64,000 nt of DNA from Thiomicrospira pelophila DSM 1534 (lineage in GTDB: Bacteria > Pseudomonadota > Gammaproteobacteria > Thiomicrospirales > Thiomicrospiraceae): assembly GCF_000711195.1 (NCBI RefSeq), contig NZ_JOMR01000001.1, positions 1,488,001 to 1,552,000 of the forward strand. The letters are read 5' to 3'. Position numbers and translations under genes: made by a program. Below the pieces are notes generated by a model that worked only from the letters and a program-made list of their open reading frames with translations, did not search any database and was not told the DNA's origin. Position 1 is the stretch's first letter. Every line of letters starts with the position of its first letter. Shown piece by piece: positions 18,985 through 25,947 of the stretch.

Positions 18985-19030
18985 TTCTCAATAGTTTCTC
19001 AATAGTCCTTATTTATATTGTGGATAAAAT
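18985..19030 (+). promoter_or_regulatory. tandem 11-bp operator repeat and -10 box of the first copper-cluster operon
   Basis: TTCTCAATAGT occurs twice in direct tandem (18985-18995 and 18996-19006), ending 18 bp before a -10-like TAAAAT (19025-19030). No -35 consensus is present. The ungapped 46-bp segment from 18987 is about 70 percent identical to one at the same spacing before the second receptor gene. Direct repeats with one-helical-turn spacing replacing a -35 are typical of OmpR/PhoB-type response-regulator sites. Confidence 0.6.
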
Positions 19031-19060
19031 AGCCTCACCTAAAATTACAAGGATGATCCG

Positions 19061-21151
19061 ATGCAGCATAAACGTCTATATTTAGCCCTAACGACCTTAC
19101 TCTTTGCCCCCACCTGCGTTATGGCGGAAAACCAACTGGATACTATTAGTATCACCGCTACAAAAATAGAACGTGAATCTAAAACCGTTCCACAAAGCGT
19201 ATACGTCATTGATGAAAAGCAAATTGAAACTGAAAATGCCACCAGCATTAATGAAGTGATCAGCAATATTCCCGGCGTCACCGCCGTCAGTAAGAACAAT
19301 GGCTATGATTCTCGACTCATTATCCGAGGTGCTGGATTAAAGGCTCCTTATGGCGTGCGTGAGATCATGGTGATTCGTGATGGCGTACCGATGACCGATC
19401 CGGACAGCTTCACCCGTTTTGATGTCATTGATATTGATGATATTGAATCGGTCGAAGTGTATAAAGGGCCGGGTTCAATTTTCGCCAGTAATGCCACCGG
19501 TGGCGTGGTATTTATCCAATCAAAATCCGTGTTTGACGACCAACAGGATCGTGTAAAAGTCGGCTATGGCAGCTTTAACACCGTCAAACTGAATGCCAAA
19601 AAATCACTACAACTGTCTGATACAGATAATATTTCGATCAACGTCTCACATCGCCAGTCAGAAAACAGCTGGCGCGATTGGAATAAATTTGACACATCCC
19701 AGTTCAGTATTAAACACGGTCACTTTTTTGACGATGACTCGGTGCTTGAAACCGAGATTGCTTACACCCAAGCCAACCTGCAACTACCTCAATCCTTGAG
19801 TGCTGCAGAGTTTGAAGCTTATAAAGATACCGGCGAAACCACCAACACCAGCAGCGCCTGGCAAAAGAGTGGTCGCTATTCTAATACCTTGTTTATTAAC
19901 AGCCGCTATGAAACCACGATGGGTGAATTCGACTTTAAACCCCAAGTATATATGACTCGCTGGGATCATTTTCACCCAGTTACCGGCATGATTAACGACT
20001 CACAAGACAATACCGTTATTGGTACCGATCTATCCTGGAGCCGTAGTCACGATTTTTTCAACATGCCTTCTGAACAGATTTTCGGACTAGGCTTGCGTGC
20101 TGATATTCAAAACGATGCCAAGAAATACGAATACGCGGATATTACCACCGGATTTGGCGGACGCATCACTCAAGTTAACTCAGATGAAAAAGGCAATTTA
20201 GCCAATATTGAAGACAGCGACAGCCAAATTTATAGCGCCTACTTTCAAGAGTCTTTCACACCGAGTTCAAAGTGGGTCATAGACCTAGGTATTCGCACCG
20301 ATATTTTGAACATGAACATCAAAGGCACCGAATATTCAAGTTACAACTTTTCAACTGGTGTATATGAAGCAGGCGATGGTGATTTTAAATATCAAGAATC
20401 CTATCAACTCATCTCCCCAAAAATTGGCGCTAGTTATGCTTTAACTGACACACTGAATGTGTTTGCGATTGCCGTTTCGGCCAACCAGGCACCAACTGTG
20501 AGTGAGATGCAAGCCAATCAAACTTACGACAAGGGCGACCTAAAAGGTTCGACCTCAAGCAATTTTGAATTTGGCTTAAAACAGCGTGGTCATAAACTCA
20601 GTGCGGATTTAAATGTCTACTACACCCAACTGGTTGATGAAATCGTTTCGGTAAAAGGCGGCAGCTTTCCAAACCTTTATACTTACTATGAAAATGCCGG
20701 TAAAAGTGAACGCAAAGGCATTGAATTAAGCGCACAATACCAAACCACATCAGATCTCAGCCTTGGCGCTAATGCGAGCGCGATGGATTATAGATATATC
20801 GACTATGTCAGCTCAGGCACAGATTACTCTAATAACCGCCCTCGTTTTATTCCTGACTATCAATATGCTCTATTTGCCAATTGGCATAAACAGGCGTATT
20901 CCGCTCGAGTCGAAGCAATTGGCTTTGGTCCCTACTATATTGATGATGCCAATACGGAACGTGATCAAGGGTATGACGGGGTATTCAATTTAATGCTTGG
21001 TTACAGCAAACAATCCCATCTTGTAAACCTAAGTGTGCGTAATCTATTAGACAAACGCTATGCTCAAGAAGTTTCGGCATCCTACGGTGGAAACCTCTAT
21101 ACCCCGGGCGCGCCAAGAAGCCTGATGCTGACCTATCAATATAAATACTAG
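19061..21151 (+). CDS. TonB-dependent outer-membrane receptor
   Basis: A 696-residue receptor with a signal peptide ending VMAE, a TonB box-like DTISITATK, a plug domain with VIRDGVPMTDPDSF and VEVYKGPGSIFASNATGG, and a 22-strand barrel ending in the aromatic LTYQYKY. It lacks an N-terminal signalling extension, so it is not a FecA/FpvA-type transducer. It is followed after 9 bp by a polyferredoxin gene. The ligand is uncertain: a ferric or cupric chelate is likely, and the copper genes downstream favour copper. Confidence 0.88.
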   Translation: MQHKRLYLALTTLLFAPTCVMAENQLDTISITATKIERESKTVPQSVYVIDEKQIETENATSINEVISNIPGVTAVSKNNGYDSRLIIRGAGLKAPYGVREIMVIRDGVPMTDPDSFTRFDVIDIDDIESVEVYKGPGSIFASNATGGVVFIQSKSVFDDQQDRVKVGYGSFNTVKLNAKKSLQLSDTDNISINVSHRQSENSWRDWNKFDTSQFSIKHGHFFDDDSVLETEIAYTQANLQLPQSLSAAEFEAYKDTGETTNTSSAWQKSGRYSNTLFINSRYETTMGEFDFKPQVYMTRWDHFHPVTGMINDSQDNTVIGTDLSWSRSHDFFNMPSEQIFGLGLRADIQNDAKKYEYADITTGFGGRITQVNSDEKGNLANIEDSDSQIYSAYFQESFTPSSKWVIDLGIRTDILNMNIKGTEYSSYNFSTGVYEAGDGDFKYQESYQLISPKIGASYALTDTLNVFAIAVSANQAPTVSEMQANQTYDKGDLKGSTSSNFEFGLKQRGHKLSADLNVYYTQLVDEIVSVKGGSFPNLYTYYENAGKSERKGIELSAQYQTTSDLSLGANASAMDYRYIDYVSSGTDYSNNRPRFIPDYQYALFANWHKQAYSARVEAIGFGPYYIDDANTERDQGYDGVFNLMLGYSKQSHLVNLSVRNLLDKRYAQEVSASYGGNLYTPGAPRSLMLTYQYKY

Positions 21152-21160
21152 GAGCCGGAT

Positions 21161-22540
21161 ATGAAAGTAGTTGAACGCCAATCGAGTCGTTTGAATCTAT
21201 TACGCTGGCCGGTCATCGGCTGGTTTTTTAATCACACGCCGACCATGCAAGTCATGCGAGTTATCGTATTGGCAATGATGGTCAGCGCGATTTATTTCGG
21301 TTTGGTTTATCCAACCGAAGACCTCAACCCATACACCGGAGCGATTTTTTGGTCGCTGTTTTGGCCGTTCTTTCTGATTGTCAGCATGGCGACCTTAGGC
21401 CCGATTTTTTGCGGCATTTGCCCGCACAGTTTTGTCGGAAAATACCTCAACAAAATCGGACCACAAAAACCGATCCCGGCTTGGCTAAAAAAGCGTTGGA
21501 TCGGATTCGGGCTTTTACTGGCGGCTTATTGGGTTCCTATTTACGCCTTTCCTGACCTACTTAAAACGCCTTGGATTACCGCTTTGTTCTTTTTGGTATT
21601 AACCATTTTTGCCTGGGTTAGCTTTTATTTATTTAGAAACATGGCCTATTGTTCAAACCTATGCCCTATCGGATCAGTGACCAGTGCTTTTGGTAAAGTC
21701 GGCTTTGCCAAGCTAACTAGCGACCAAGACCACTGCACAAGTTGCCGTACATTTGACTGTATGAAAGCCTGCCAATGGAACCTTAAGCCTTACCTTTTTG
21801 AACAAAAAAATTCGATGGGCGACTGCACCCTATGCATGGATTGCACCAAAGCCTGTAATGCGGTCGAATTCAAGCTATCCAAGCCGTCTATTCAACTTTG
21901 GAAGCCCTCAAAAGCCAAAGAGCCTATGAATGTTTGGGTGTATGTTTGGTTGCTAGCGGTGATCTCCATTACCATGCGTTTCCATCACTCGTTAGGTCAC
22001 TCTTCCATCAAAGAACAACTGCCTTGGGTACAAGCCGGAACTTGGATGAACCAGGCCTGGCCGATGCCAATGTTTGATTGGATTGGCGCGATTGCGTTGG
22101 GTATGGCGGTGGCTATCACTTTTGCGATCGTCTATGCCAGCTTCGCATTAAGCGCAAAACTGATTAATAAACCTTTTACGGAATACTTCCAGTCGGTGGG
22201 TCAAATGTTAGCCCCCTTAATGTTAATTGGTGGGTTAAGCCATGTTGGGAGTTTTTTCTTCTTACACTATGCCTCAGATGTCGGCAATGCGTGGTATTGG
22301 CTAATCGGCTCGTTCGACCAAATGCAACCGCTTGCCAGCTTTCGTGATGGTTGGGTGCACCTATTTGGATTGTTTAACTATGTCGCGGTGGTTTGGGCCA
22401 TGTTTATTCTGCATAAACGTTTAGGGATGCTTGCCTTAAACGGACCAAAGCGCTTGGTTATATTTATGATTAGCGGCTCAATGATCTGGTTCTACCTATA
22501 TCTAGTCGTACTACGGGCCATGATTCCTCGAGGACATTAA
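21161..22540 (+). CDS. membrane 4Fe-4S polyferredoxin (NosR/CcoG-like)
   Basis: A 459-residue integral membrane iron-sulfur protein. It has about three helices before and after CGICPHSFVG (C84, C87) and CSNLCPIGS (C164, C168), then two ferredoxin clusters: C192-x2-C195-x4-C200-x3-C204 and C222-x2-C225-x2-C228-x3-C232. About five more hydrophobic segments follow to the C-terminus. The CxxCP pairs and ferredoxin sites recall NosR C-terminal regions and CcoG/RdxA, the latter reported as a cupric reductase in cbb3 oxidase assembly. Sharing an operon with a TonB receptor, it may reduce the imported metal. The C-terminal part lacks the CcoG Ig-like domain, so orthology is not claimed. Confidence 0.8.
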   Translation: MKVVERQSSRLNLLRWPVIGWFFNHTPTMQVMRVIVLAMMVSAIYFGLVYPTEDLNPYTGAIFWSLFWPFFLIVSMATLGPIFCGICPHSFVGKYLNKIGPQKPIPAWLKKRWIGFGLLLAAYWVPIYAFPDLLKTPWITALFFLVLTIFAWVSFYLFRNMAYCSNLCPIGSVTSAFGKVGFAKLTSDQDHCTSCRTFDCMKACQWNLKPYLFEQKNSMGDCTLCMDCTKACNAVEFKLSKPSIQLWKPSKAKEPMNVWVYVWLLAVISITMRFHHSLGHSSIKEQLPWVQAGTWMNQAWPMPMFDWIGAIALGMAVAITFAIVYASFALSAKLINKPFTEYFQSVGQMLAPLMLIGGLSHVGSFFFLHYASDVGNAWYWLIGSFDQMQPLASFRDGWVHLFGLFNYVAVVWAMFILHKRLGMLALNGPKRLVIFMISGSMIWFYLYLVVLRAMIPRGH

Positions 22541-22547
22541 GTTTTAG

Positions 22548-22571
22548 CCAACCACCAGGCCTGGTGGTTGG
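22548..22571. terminator. 24-bp perfect palindrome after the polyferredoxin gene
   Basis: CCAACCACCAGG and CCTGGTGGTTGG meet without a loop, centred on ACCAGGCCTGGT. It lies 8 bp after the stop codon and is followed by an AT-rich stretch without a solid T run. It is a candidate terminator or protein-binding site. Confidence 0.55.
22554..22565. repeat. iterated palindrome, perfect copy 5
   Basis: Centre of the 24-bp intergenic palindrome. Confidence 0.9.
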
Positions 22572-22643
22572 TTTAGAACAAAAATTATAAGCTCTTCACC
22601 TACACAACTTAATTCCCTAAACCACGTAAAACCAAACAATTAT

Positions 22644-22687
22644 CTCAAGACTGTTTCAATACTCTTTATTTTTAAGCTTTCTAGAAT
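22644..22687 (+). promoter_or_regulatory. second copy of the copper-cluster operator and -10 box
   Basis: CTCAAGACTGTTTCAATACTC aligns without gaps to the operator before the first receptor gene, and a -10-like TAGAAT (22682-22687) sits at the identical 38-bp distance from the CTCAA. The repeat unit spacing is again 11 bp. Confidence 0.55.
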
Positions 22688-22724: not shown

Positions 22725-24758
22725 ATGAAACAACGTCTCGTTACATTAGCCGTATTATCGGCACTGTCTTATCAAGCTCACGCCGCGACTTTAATGCCTA
22801 TTCAAGTTAAAGCGGATGTTCAGTCTGAAACCGTTGAACTTTCTGAGAGCTTGAAACAATCGGGTAATACGGAAGCCGGTTCGGTGCTTCGTCAATTTTC
22901 AGGTGTAGAAGCTCAGCGATTAGGCGGCATTGGCTTGGATATCCTGATTCGCGGACAAGGCCAATCGGCCGTCAATATTTTAATTGATGGCGGTAAAATT
23001 GAAGGTGGCTGTCCGAATCGCATGGACCCGCCAACTCATTACACCGAACTATCGAGCTTCGACAAAATTACGGTTCTAAAGGGCGTGCAATCTTTACAAT
23101 ATGGTGTCGGTGGTACCGCGGGTACCTTGTTATTGGAACGTGACAAGCCAGAGTTTGAAGACGGCAAAGCCTACAAGGGTGAAGTCTATGCCGCGACCAA
23201 CTCGAACGGTTTGACACAAGATGTCGGCGCCGAAGTAGCAGTTGGCAACGACCAAATGTACATGGTATTACAAGGCTCGAATAAATCCGCTGATGATTAT
23301 AAAGATGGCAATGGCGATGATGTGCGAGCCAGCTACGAAACCCAACAAGGTCATATTGATTTAGGTTGGACCCCGTCTGAAGATCATCATGTCAAACTTT
23401 CGCATGAAACATCAAATACCCAAGATGCCTTATATCAAGGTTCGAGCATGGATGCGCCTAAATCTAACGGAAGCATGACGCGCTTAAGTTATGAGGGAAA
23501 AAACTTTAGCGGCCCAGTGAATGAAGTCGCAGTATCGGCGTATCAATCGAAAGTCGAACACGTGATGGATAACTTTAGTTTGCGTACGGCCCCTTCCGCC
23601 ACAATGTGGATGGAAACCCCAACTGAGGTTAATACTCAGGGCGCCAAGATAAAGCTCACCTCTAACCTCAACCAAACCCGTTTAGATTATGGCTTGATGC
23701 TACAAACCATGGAAAAAGATGCGATACTTTATAATCGTGCGCCGACTTCACCCCAATACAATAACTCTCAGTATTTAATGTGGCCCAACACCTTAACTGA
23801 GCAGAACAGCCTATTTGCCGAGGCCAATACGGCGTTATCCAATAGCCAAAACTTAATGTATGGCGTGCGCATTGATCAAGTGACCGCACAGGCTAAAGAT
23901 GCTAATCAAGCACCGGATAACACAATGATGGCACCTCAGCCACGTACGCCCATTGATCTATATGATGCCGCTTATGCTGATTACTCAGGTGATACTAAAA
24001 TTGATGAAACCAATTGGAATGGCTTGATTCGTTATGAACAAACACTCAGCTCTTCATTAGCTTGGTTTGGTGGCTTAAGCCTCACCACTCGCACCGCGGA
24101 TGAAACCGAACGTTTTATGGCGCGCGATACCTGGACAGGTAACCCAGACTTAAACCCAGAAAAACACATGCAAATCGATCTAGGTCTAAGTCAGCAAGCT
24201 CATGCTTTTAATTGGTCAGCCAATATTTATTATGACCAGGTAACCGATTATATCTTGAGAGATAAAGCGGCAAATCAAACAGAAATCACCAATTCTGGTG
24301 AAGGTTACGTCAATGTCGATGCGGTGATTTATGGTGCCGAATTCGACTGGGGTTATCAGCTTAACCAGGCCTGGTTATTAGGCGGCAACCTGGCCTTAGC
24401 CAAAGGTCGCAATACCACGGATGATCGCAACCTAAGCAATATGGCGCCAGTTAACGGTCAAATTAATGCGCGCTATGAACGTGAAGTTTGGTATGCCGGT
24501 TCGCGCTTTAATTTTGCCAGCGAGCAAACAGAAGTAAATACCCTTTATGCTGAAGAAAAGGCGCCGGCTTGGAGTACCTTAGATGTGTTTGGTGGCTACA
24601 GCCTAAATAAAACCTTCCAGATACAAGCTGGCGTAGATAACCTACTTGACCACGCCTATTTCACCCATGTTAACCGGACCGACTCCTTTACCGGAGAAAG
24701 CTACAAAGTTATGGAACCAGGCCGTAACATTTGGGCTCGCGTGGCCGCGAAGTTTTAG
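22725..24758 (+). CDS. TonB-dependent copper receptor (OprC/NosA family)
   Basis: A 677-residue outer-membrane receptor. The ATG at 22725 follows AAGGA and gives a signal peptide ending AHAA. The family-diagnostic GGCPNRMDPPTHY motif is present in the plug, together with Met-rich loops (MWMETPTEV, YLMWPNT, NTMMAPQ), as expected for copper binding. OprC/NosA proteins import copper or supply it for nitrous-oxide reductase and oxidases. The sequence ends with a barrel strand and terminal Phe. It is followed by an intrinsic terminator, then Sco and PCuAC genes, which strengthens the copper assignment. Confidence 0.9.
   Translation: MKQRLVTLAVLSALSYQAHAATLMPIQVKADVQSETVELSESLKQSGNTEAGSVLRQFSGVEAQRLGGIGLDILIRGQGQSAVNILIDGGKIEGGCPNRMDPPTHYTELSSFDKITVLKGVQSLQYGVGGTAGTLLLERDKPEFEDGKAYKGEVYAATNSNGLTQDVGAEVAVGNDQMYMVLQGSNKSADDYKDGNGDDVRASYETQQGHIDLGWTPSEDHHVKLSHETSNTQDALYQGSSMDAPKSNGSMTRLSYEGKNFSGPVNEVAVSAYQSKVEHVMDNFSLRTAPSATMWMETPTEVNTQGAKIKLTSNLNQTRLDYGLMLQTMEKDAILYNRAPTSPQYNNSQYLMWPNTLTEQNSLFAEANTALSNSQNLMYGVRIDQVTAQAKDANQAPDNTMMAPQPRTPIDLYDAAYADYSGDTKIDETNWNGLIRYEQTLSSSLAWFGGLSLTTRTADETERFMARDTWTGNPDLNPEKHMQIDLGLSQQAHAFNWSANIYYDQVTDYILRDKAANQTEITNSGEGYVNVDAVIYGAEFDWGYQLNQAWLLGGNLALAKGRNTTDDRNLSNMAPVNGQINARYEREVWYAGSRFNFASEQTEVNTLYAEEKAPAWSTLDVFGGYSLNKTFQIQAGVDNLLDHAYFTHVNRTDSFTGESYKVMEPGRNIWARVAAKF
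24364..24375. repeat. iterated palindrome, perfect copy 6
   Basis: Within the copper receptor gene, read as NQAW; the palindrome extends to 16 bp (24362-24377). Confidence 0.9.
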
Positions 24759-24814: not shown

Positions 24815-24828
24815 GCGTGGAGAGAACC

Positions 24829-25446
24829 ATGAATCAAACTAAGCTCAATCGAGCCTTTTTAATTTTGCTCTTAGCCTTTGGCGTATTTTTGGCGGGCAGT
24901 TACGCGTTAGTTTATACACTCAAACCTGACAACACTCACTCCAGTGCCAACCAAATTCCGATGGAAGCGCCCACTGGCGGTGATTTTAGGCTAACCTCGC
25001 TAAATGGTGAGGTGGCGTTATCAGACTTTAACGGAAAAGTGGTATTTGTGTATTTCGGTTATACCTTCTGTCCCGATATTTGCCCTACCAATTTGGCACA
25101 GATTTCGATGGCTTATCGTCAACTATCGGATGAACAAAAACAAAACTTACAAATTTTGTTCGTCTCGGTCGATCCTGAACGTGATACGCCGGAACGTTTA
25201 CAAGAATATGTCAATTATTTTGATGCCAACATGATTGGTTTAACCGGTTCGAAACAAAAAATTGACGAAATTGCACAACGTTATGGAGTTGTGTACCAAA
25301 AAGTCGAGGGCGATGTAGAAAACTATGCGGTTGATCATTCGGCCTTTACTTATGTAATTGCACCAAATGGTGAACTCAAGCAGCAATTACCGCATGCAAG
25401 TGATCCTCAACAGTTTATTGAAGCTCTTAACCGCTATTCACTTTAA
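24829..25446 (+). CDS. SCO1/SenC-family copper chaperone
   Basis: A thioredoxin-fold membrane-anchored copper protein of 205 residues for assembly of cytochrome oxidase. It has an N-terminal anchor (about residues 9-30), the metal-binding C81-P-D-I-C85 motif and the distal ligand His170 in VDHSAF. The start is the ATG with GGAGAG upstream, in preference to an in-frame GTG at 24817. Only 12 bp separate its stop from the PCuAC start, so the two are co-transcribed, as in many bacteria where they load the CuA or CuB site. Confidence 0.93.
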   Translation: MNQTKLNRAFLILLLAFGVFLAGSYALVYTLKPDNTHSSANQIPMEAPTGGDFRLTSLNGEVALSDFNGKVVFVYFGYTFCPDICPTNLAQISMAYRQLSDEQKQNLQILFVSVDPERDTPERLQEYVNYFDANMIGLTGSKQKIDEIAQRYGVVYQKVEGDVENYAVDHSAFTYVIAPNGELKQQLPHASDPQQFIEALNRYSL

Positions 25447-25458
25447 ATGGAGATATTT

Positions 25459-25947
25459 ATGTTTAAACGCCACACAATTTTAGCTATCGCTCTACTCAGC
25501 AGCCTAATCGGCTTTAACGCCATGGCAAACCAAGCGGCTGACCTTGAAATTGAAAACCCATTCGTACGTGAAATGCCACCAACGGCTCCTGCTACTGGTG
25601 CGTTTATGACGATGATTAATAGCTCAGATCAGGATATTGCCATTGTCAGCGCAAAGTCAGACGCGGCTAAAACAGTCGAGTTGCACACTCATACGCACGA
25701 TAATGGTGTTATGCGCATGCGTGAAATCCCAAAAATTCTAGTGCCCGCGATGGGACAAGCCGAGCTAAAACCAGGCGGATTACACATTATGCTAATCAAC
25801 CCAACTCGTGCTTTAAAAGAAGGTGACGAGGTTCGCATTGTGGTGACCTTAAAAGACGGTTCCGAACAAGAAATTATCGCGCCGGTACGTAAAATCATGG
25901 GCATGGGTCAACATAAAGGCATGGGCCACGGCATGAAAAACATGTAA
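25459..25947 (+). CDS. periplasmic copper chaperone PCu(A)C
   Basis: A 162-residue secreted cupredoxin-like protein with a signal peptide ending AMAN. The diagnostic copper motif is exact: H76-x10-M87-x21-H109-x-M111. A Met/His-rich tail (MGMGQHKGMGHGMKNM) adds likely further copper sites. It is thought to hand Cu(I) to Sco and the oxidase. The ATG at 25459 is preceded by GGAGAT. Last gene of the copper cluster, convergent with the next gene. Confidence 0.93.
   Translation: MFKRHTILAIALLSSLIGFNAMANQAADLEIENPFVREMPPTAPATGAFMTMINSSDQDIAIVSAKSDAAKTVELHTHTHDNGVMRMREIPKILVPAMGQAELKPGGLHIMLINPTRALKEGDEVRIVVTLKDGSEQEIIAPVRKIMGMGQHKGMGHGMKNM

Follow-up and report, generated by a model that had tools for sequence, protein, structure and literature searches.

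What would lead two neighboring genes for TonB-dependent receptors to share an unusual promoter, which regulator might act on it, and what else might it control? We addressed this question in a 64,000-nucleotide stretch of the genome of Thiomicrospira pelophila DSM 1534 (hereafter the window; positions 1,488,001 to 1,552,000 of contig NZ_JOMR01000001.1), where each of two receptor genes is preceded by an operator-like direct repeat with an 11-bp period. The genome of the window, a single contig of 2.1 Mb, is referred to as G000, and the genus set comprises G000 to G008. The explanation that we favor as a whole, with moderate confidence, is a copper-scarcity regulon in which copper uptake and copper sparing are under common control. 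It would account for the sites, their spacing, their conservation, and the complementarity described below by regulator binding, promoter activation, RNA expression, and translational repression that are predicted from them.

The central observation in the window is the operator pair itself. Operator 1 (18985–19006, forward strand) consists of two 11-bp half-sites TTCTCAATAGT in tandem, at 18985–18995 and 18996–19006, as a preliminary description of this DNA had claimed, while operator 2 (22642–22663, forward strand) is the direct repeat ATCTCAAGACT GTTTCAATACT before a copper receptor gene. Each is followed on the same strand by a putative −10 box recognized by its match to the consensus, TAAAAT at 19025–19030 and TAGAAT at 22682–22687. 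The distance reported in the same description proved to be 38 bp in both promoters when measured between the initial C of the first CTCAA and the leading T of the −10 hexamer (18987 to 19025 and 22644 to 22682). The ungapped 46-bp alignment of the two promoter segments also exists, its identity of "about 70 percent" being slightly generous (29 of 46 positions as computed, 31 of 46 by eye from the first repeat base). A single 11-mer is unremarkable, since 18 window matches with at most two mismatches compare with 20.5 expected; it is the pair that is special. When a position weight matrix (PWM) trained on the copper-receptor sites of the eight other genus genomes, G000 excluded, was run along the window, operators 1 and 2 scored 28.1 and 28.0, the next-ranked position scored 10.4, and 20 first-order Markov windows gave no score above 16.6. 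The period matters as well, because half-sites 11 bp apart score 28.1 and spacings of 8–10 and 12–15 bp no more than 16.7. Across the whole genome, a looser pattern allowing up to two mismatches has seven matches, zero or one mismatch being found only in the two window sites, and one of the five remaining matches (115342–115362) is a third conserved promoter.

This architecture is conserved in relatives. When orthologue upstreams are read in the proper orientation, the repeat precedes the copper receptor in all nine genus genomes, and it precedes receptor 1 in G000 and G004, which are both of the genus genomes with a close orthologue. A family-wide PWM, trained on the nine genus copper-receptor sites including G000 and with p values drawn from 300 Markov resamples each, finds a half-site pair at p<0.01 in 16 of 28 copper-receptor upstreams (among them the nine genus sites that form the training set), and outside the training set in 7 of 13 receptor-1 upstreams and 17 of 29 upstreams of a gene encoding a 148-aa protein (its start being misplaced in G012). 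Across relatives, spacings of 10 and 12 bp give a much lower mean score than 11. A pattern search of 58 family genomes returned 30 matches in 20 genomes versus one control match, and added as targets SCO1 in G003, where it stands apart from the receptor, and a MauG-type di-haem gene in G008; three matches (L164, L167, and L182) are intragenic and were excluded from the promoter count, and three others (L163, L169, and L183) precede other genes. A worldwide scan for the motif gave 12 stretches, three from Thiomicrospira, one from OM182, and eight presumed without inspection to be chance. The OM182 bacterium BACL3 carries at the very end of a contig (L247:1–45) a fourfold 11-bp repeat, TCAATRCTCTY, that resembles the operator described here.

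Promoter anatomy points to the kind of protein that might bind. In each of the 18 genus promoters examined, the distance from the first CTCAA to a TANA(A/C)T hexamer is precisely 38 bp, and among 41 hand-picked family promoters, 30 have the hexamer at 38, 49, or 60 bp, three are one base off, and eight have none in phase. These distances are steps of 11 (38+11k), which most promoters follow in genera outside Thiomicrospira, where operators have up to four half-sites instead of two. With the −10 box placed at −12, the center of two half-sites falls by arithmetic near −41, the position of a class II activator. Because the pair is conserved and its spacing is fixed in steps of 11, the repeat is probably an OmpR/PhoB-type class II activator site that takes the place of the −35 box, which supports the earlier suggestion of a PhoB/OmpR-type operator. 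The likeness to Pho and PmrA boxes lies in direct repeats of 11-bp period over the −35 region and a fixed −10 box, but the half-site here is CTCAAKACT rather than TGTCA or CTTAA, and PhoB is missing from one genome that carries the repeat (G005).

Copper, not iron, is the probable theme of the system. The genes of both receptor operons lie on the forward strand. Receptor 1 (19061–21151, 696 aa) is a TonB-dependent receptor whose nearest solved structures, on comparison with structural relatives, are YncD and a PQQ transporter. It is followed 9 bp downstream by a gene for a membrane 4Fe-4S ferredoxin (21161–22540, 459 aa) that is NapH-like at scores below the NapH curated cut-offs, and the two probably form one operon. 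The second operon starts with an OprC/NosA-like TonB-dependent copper receptor (22725–24758, 677 aa from the ATG at 22725; TIGR01778, E 1.1e-139, with 467.1 bits just below the curated cut-off of 472.45), for which OprC is the best solved relative (E 2.7e-72), and continues with the copper chaperones SCO1/SenC (24817–25446; PF02630, E 5.1e-46) and PCu(A)C (25447–25947; PF04314, E 1.5e-36). Bacterial copper acquisition is described as poorly characterized in PMC12914433. Among known systems, the copper-regulated TonB receptors CrtA/OptJ and OprC are close to the one described here, which likewise has copper TonB receptors. According to the same source, PCuAC and ScoI genes occur in a few CrtA operons, a further likeness, and more than 40 percent of the operons start with the upstream open reading frame cruR.

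The third conserved site leads to what is apparently an undescribed small RNA (sRNA), whose expression is predicted from sequence. In G000, this site (115342–115362) lies 206 bp upstream of the 148-aa gene, and the interval between them has in 24 genomes a hairpin and an invariant CTCCTCA (CUCCUCA in RNA), followed in most by a GC-rich hairpin and a run of T. The G000 candidate, at about 115393–115498 of C1, comprises a hairpin, the unpaired segment CUCCUCAG (the seed), and an intrinsic terminator. A model built from ten sequences and searched in 57 genomes matched 23, all in the family, of which 22 were accepted and one (G026) rejected; with five further cases recognized by eye (G000, G002, G003, G008, and G021), the sRNA is present in 27 of 36 family genomes. 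Weak model matches that lack CTCCTCA were discarded (L301 in G026, and L305 and L308 in G023), L306 is the opposite strand of L297, and L307 (G006), which has CTCCTCA and no operator that we could see, was left uncounted. The sRNA was not found in the 21 other genomes, an absence that is weakly tested because the model missed the five cases found by eye; inspection of the examined loci in G001, G004, G005, and G007 showed none. An alignment of 24 distinct rows, one of them the opposite strand of L213, has 93.7 percent of its cells paired and changes on both sides in 17 of 18 pairs, a result that no shuffle equals; the alignment was fitted to the model, which favors structure. The G000 RNA has a predicted fold with a z score of −4.57 in which the seed is unpaired. 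Six sRNA loci gave no Rfam family match at gathering score, and a separate Rfam comparison gave one sub-threshold match, to suhB (16.9 bits, E 0.59). Of 24 sRNA upstreams scored for the repeat, 17 reach p<0.01 and 20 p<0.05, G011 being borderline at 0.057 and G030, G032, and G034 non-significant; by eye, those of G006 and G012 show recognizable half-site pairs. By sequence and predicted fold, the candidate has its own promoter, an intrinsic terminator, and a conserved unpaired seed, as is expected of a base-pairing sRNA of RyhB type.

The 148-aa protein (L078:4070–4516; G000:C1:115569–116015) reads HGHGSD...GRAIRSWDPLFAALFE, belongs to no significant Pfam family, and is matched in 31 of the 57 genomes searched, each of which belongs to the Thiomicrospira family set. 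Its gene was considered as the true target of the operator and set aside once the terminator and seed appeared, because these stand upstream of it. A related alternative is that the conserved RNA is a terminated leader of this gene, an attenuator, rather than a trans-acting sRNA. In the initial alignment of 24 genomes it lies directly upstream of the gene, and it ends in an intrinsic terminator, as a leader would, but −10-like boxes can be seen by eye after the terminator, close to the start of the 148-aa gene; the seed is invariant whereas the stems covary; and in G022 the RNA lies some 4 kb from the gene and still has hairpin, seed, and terminator. We therefore consider an attenuator quite improbable.

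If the RNA acts in trans, its seed points to the copper-containing cbb3 oxidase. Within 10 bases of an ATG, CTGAGGAG has 55 matches in eight genomes versus 14 for a reversed control pattern; seven of these genomes (G000, G003, G008, G010, G014, G023, and G033) have a match at ccoP, the remaining one (G022) has a match at ccoO, and no other gene with a true start recurs among the 49 of 55 matches inspected. More broadly, YTGAGGAG stands at the Shine-Dalgarno sequence of ccoO in all 35 family genomes that have the gene and of ccoP in 34 of 35 (the exception being G031), counts in which related genomes are non-independent trials, compared with 3 of 448 other gene starts (4 of 448 for TGAGGAG). 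It is found at none of eight outgroup ccoP genes, whose starts are estimated, and one outgroup ccoO (G043) has CTGAGGAG. Seed-ccoP duplexes, computed for 26 of the 27 sRNA genomes (G034 left out) and set against 431 control starts, are equalled by at most six controls in 15 of 26, with 12 contiguous pairs in G000 and 13–14 in G014 and G021. A seed complementary to the ribosome sites of metalloprotein mRNAs, G031 being the exception for ccoP, is a feature of RyhB-type RNAs. The ribosome sites of ccoO and ccoP (L359–L393) are also embedded in short inverted repeats, GAGTTGAGGAG..AACTC and TTATTCTGAGGAGAATAA, possibly hairpins that hide the start signal.

A reading that we place on the unlikely side is that YTGAGGAG is kept at ccoO and ccoP for a reason unrelated to the sRNA: it could serve as a strong ribosome site within a small hairpin, or CsrA or another RNA-binding protein could recognize it, and its fit to the sRNA would then be incidental. 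The signal is indeed present in genomes with no detected sRNA, and by eye it falls within the inverted repeats just mentioned. Its rarity at other starts and its absence from outgroup ccoP speak against this, as do flanking pairs specific to lineages, which extend the match to 13–14 bp in G014 and G021 and are seen in G022 as TACTGAGGAG at ccoO versus CUCCUCAGUA.

Which regulator might act at the repeat? None of the five proteins with an OmpR-type DNA-binding domain in G000 is encoded in the window, in line with the preliminary description, which saw no matching regulator gene there. They are PhoB (in the pst operon), a CusR-like protein by copA, a BaeR-like protein, a PmrA/PhoP-like protein, and a divergent one (G000:C1:1217133–1217867) encoded with a histidine kinase (G000:C1:1215564–1217099) after rpoN and a cupin gene, a SPOR gene being a further neighbor. 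The same operator could instead be used by one of the first four or by another family, a reading that gains from their presence in the genome and from the PmrA-type boxes, which are also spaced 11 bp, but that we hold to be unlikely, each of the four being missing from at least one repeat carrier in a survey of OmpR-type regulators. The PmrA-like regulator has no orthologue (no match above 42 percent identity) in G001–G003 and G005–G008. PhoB and CusR are absent from G005, whose four PF00486 proteins are BaeR, two others, and the divergent candidate, with no PhoB, CusR, or PmrA-like protein among them. BaeR is absent from G014 and G018, which hold only PhoB and the candidate. The repeat precedes the copper receptor in G005 and G018 and the sRNA in G014, and from these inventories and the distribution of the PmrA-like protein, the divergent regulator is the sole OmpR-type candidate common to carriers. 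By this elimination among OmpR-type regulators, the kinase-regulator pair by rpoN most likely acts at the repeat.

The candidate regulator is full length in 30 of 36 family genomes (at least 48 percent identity) and a contig-end fragment in G004; it is absent from the four genomes of the sister genus g2 and from G025, which is 84 percent complete. Its segment QGVVERNTINTHICRIR, presumed from the family to be the DNA-recognition helix, is invariant in 18 aligned family members save I/L at two positions, while the receivers diverge, and it differs in a distant relative from G049. The best NCBIfam matches of kinase and regulator are TIGR03785 and TIGR03787, the dedicated sortase two-component pair, but the scores are far below the cut-offs (254.9 of 612.2 and 180 of 335.7, respectively) and the neighbors here are rpoN, the cupin gene, and the SPOR gene. 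Autoregulation of the candidate was rejected, no operator site being found at its genes. A regulator encoded beside the receptors was also sought, and no candidate common to the genomes was seen in 20 regions of relatives (L089–L094 seen in part); two regulator-kinase pairs do lie close to the copper receptor of G011 (L088), but that receptor has a palindrome instead of the repeat, and short CheY-like proteins occur in L081, L082, and L086. In G005 and G007 (L235 and L236), CTGAGGAG also stands before the start of rpoN, the gene adjoining the candidate regulator.

Judging from the genes controlled, namely those for the copper receptor, SCO1/PCuAC, receptor 1 with its ferredoxin, the sRNA, and, in a single species, a MauG-type enzyme, copper scarcity is the most likely signal. 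The system might instead sense a respiratory or envelope state, such as oxygen or failed oxidase assembly. Such a signal would suit targets that include SCO1 and, through the sRNA, the cbb3 oxidase, as well as a kinase alignment in which no obvious metal site is seen and a pair that distantly resembles the sortase-linked two-component family; the OprC-like copper receptor is, against this, a recurrent protein target, and we regard a signal other than copper itself as doubtful. In the copper-scarcity regulon, scarcity would activate the kinase-regulator pair; the regulator, presumably phosphorylated, would bind the repeats on one helix face, covering the −35 region beside RNA polymerase, and would recruit the polymerase, so that copper receptors and chaperones rise. 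The sRNA would block the translation of ccoO and ccoP by pairing at their ribosome-binding sites, so that scarce copper would not be spent on new oxidase. A copper-free route might, speculatively, be served by a bd-like oxidase gene, whose PF01654 score of 22.6 bits is below the cut-off of 26.2. A divergent subunit resembling those of bd oxidases, with a haem-c-like CSNCH motif near its C terminus, is encoded at L079:4126–5607 (G000:C1:50125–51606).

Several results weigh against this explanation. On the side of the regulator, the elimination covers OmpR-type regulators; the candidate pair is beside no copper genes in 20 regions examined; half-site pairs in the vicinity of its genes score poorly (best PWM score 3.5); and its distribution, across the family except g2, might reflect nothing more than phylogeny. 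Nine genomes with the candidate regulator (G011, G014, G023, G029, G030, G031, G032, G033, and G034) have no copper-receptor site at p<0.01. On the side of the RNA, 9 of 36 family genomes gave no sRNA with a model that detects the genus type poorly, and these include G001, G005, and G007 with clear copper-receptor sites. These three have the same ccoP and ccoO start signals as the others, and as matters stand the sRNA alone does not account for the conservation of the signals. Seed-ccoP pairing is equalled by 7–12 of 431 controls in G024, G027, and G029, and by 16–23 in G006, G010, G016, G017, G022, G030, and G032; in G031, where 167 controls are as good, the pairing is lost. With the full-length sRNA, pairing to ccoP is unremarkable, 41 of 77 controls being as good.

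The g2 genomes add a further aspect. There, the palindrome TGCGACAATTTGTCGCA or near forms of it stand before copper receptors (L054 in G009 and L056 in G026), receptor 1 (L012 in G022), and the sRNA (L300 in G022). This palindrome, or a close variant such as GTGCGACAATTTGTCACAT, also precedes receptors in G024 (L002), G011 (L034), G030 (L010), and G032 (L009) and, outside the family, in G044 (L055). The g2 palindrome would be a second operator for the same genes, which fits a change of regulator over one gene set, because the candidate regulator was not found in g2 and the palindrome replaces the repeat. That an undescribed two-component system turns on copper uptake together with a cbb3-silencing sRNA at one kind of operator, and that control of the receptors and the sRNA in g2 has apparently shifted to a different regulator using a palindromic operator, is a combined proposition to which we give even chances. 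A different palindrome, CCAGGCCTGG, has 12 copies in the window where none is expected (11635, 12963, 16163, 17320, 22051, 22555, 24365, 26719, 33381, 36396, 39994, and 41975); some are intragenic, and it also occurs upstream of genes in relatives.

Scarcity signals that induce an RNA lowering metal-using proteins are familiar from the iron-sparing sRNAs RyhB and PrrF. Plant copper miRNAs such as miR398 follow the same scheme (PMC8430956). The RNA proposed here, from its sequence, would resemble both in being induced by scarcity and lowering metal-using proteins. It would differ from RyhB and PrrF in that the metal is copper in a bacterium, that an OmpR-type activator is proposed instead of loss of Fur repression, and that the target is the cbb3 oxidase. 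In the open literature, most subscription papers being outside coverage, we found no report of the operator or of a bacterial copper-sparing sRNA. If the proposed regulon is real, it would provide bacteria with a copper-sparing sRNA in direct parallel to the iron-sparing RyhB, within a compact system of one operator, one candidate regulator, one RNA, and two target sites, and it would represent a gene set that changed regulator between sister genera.

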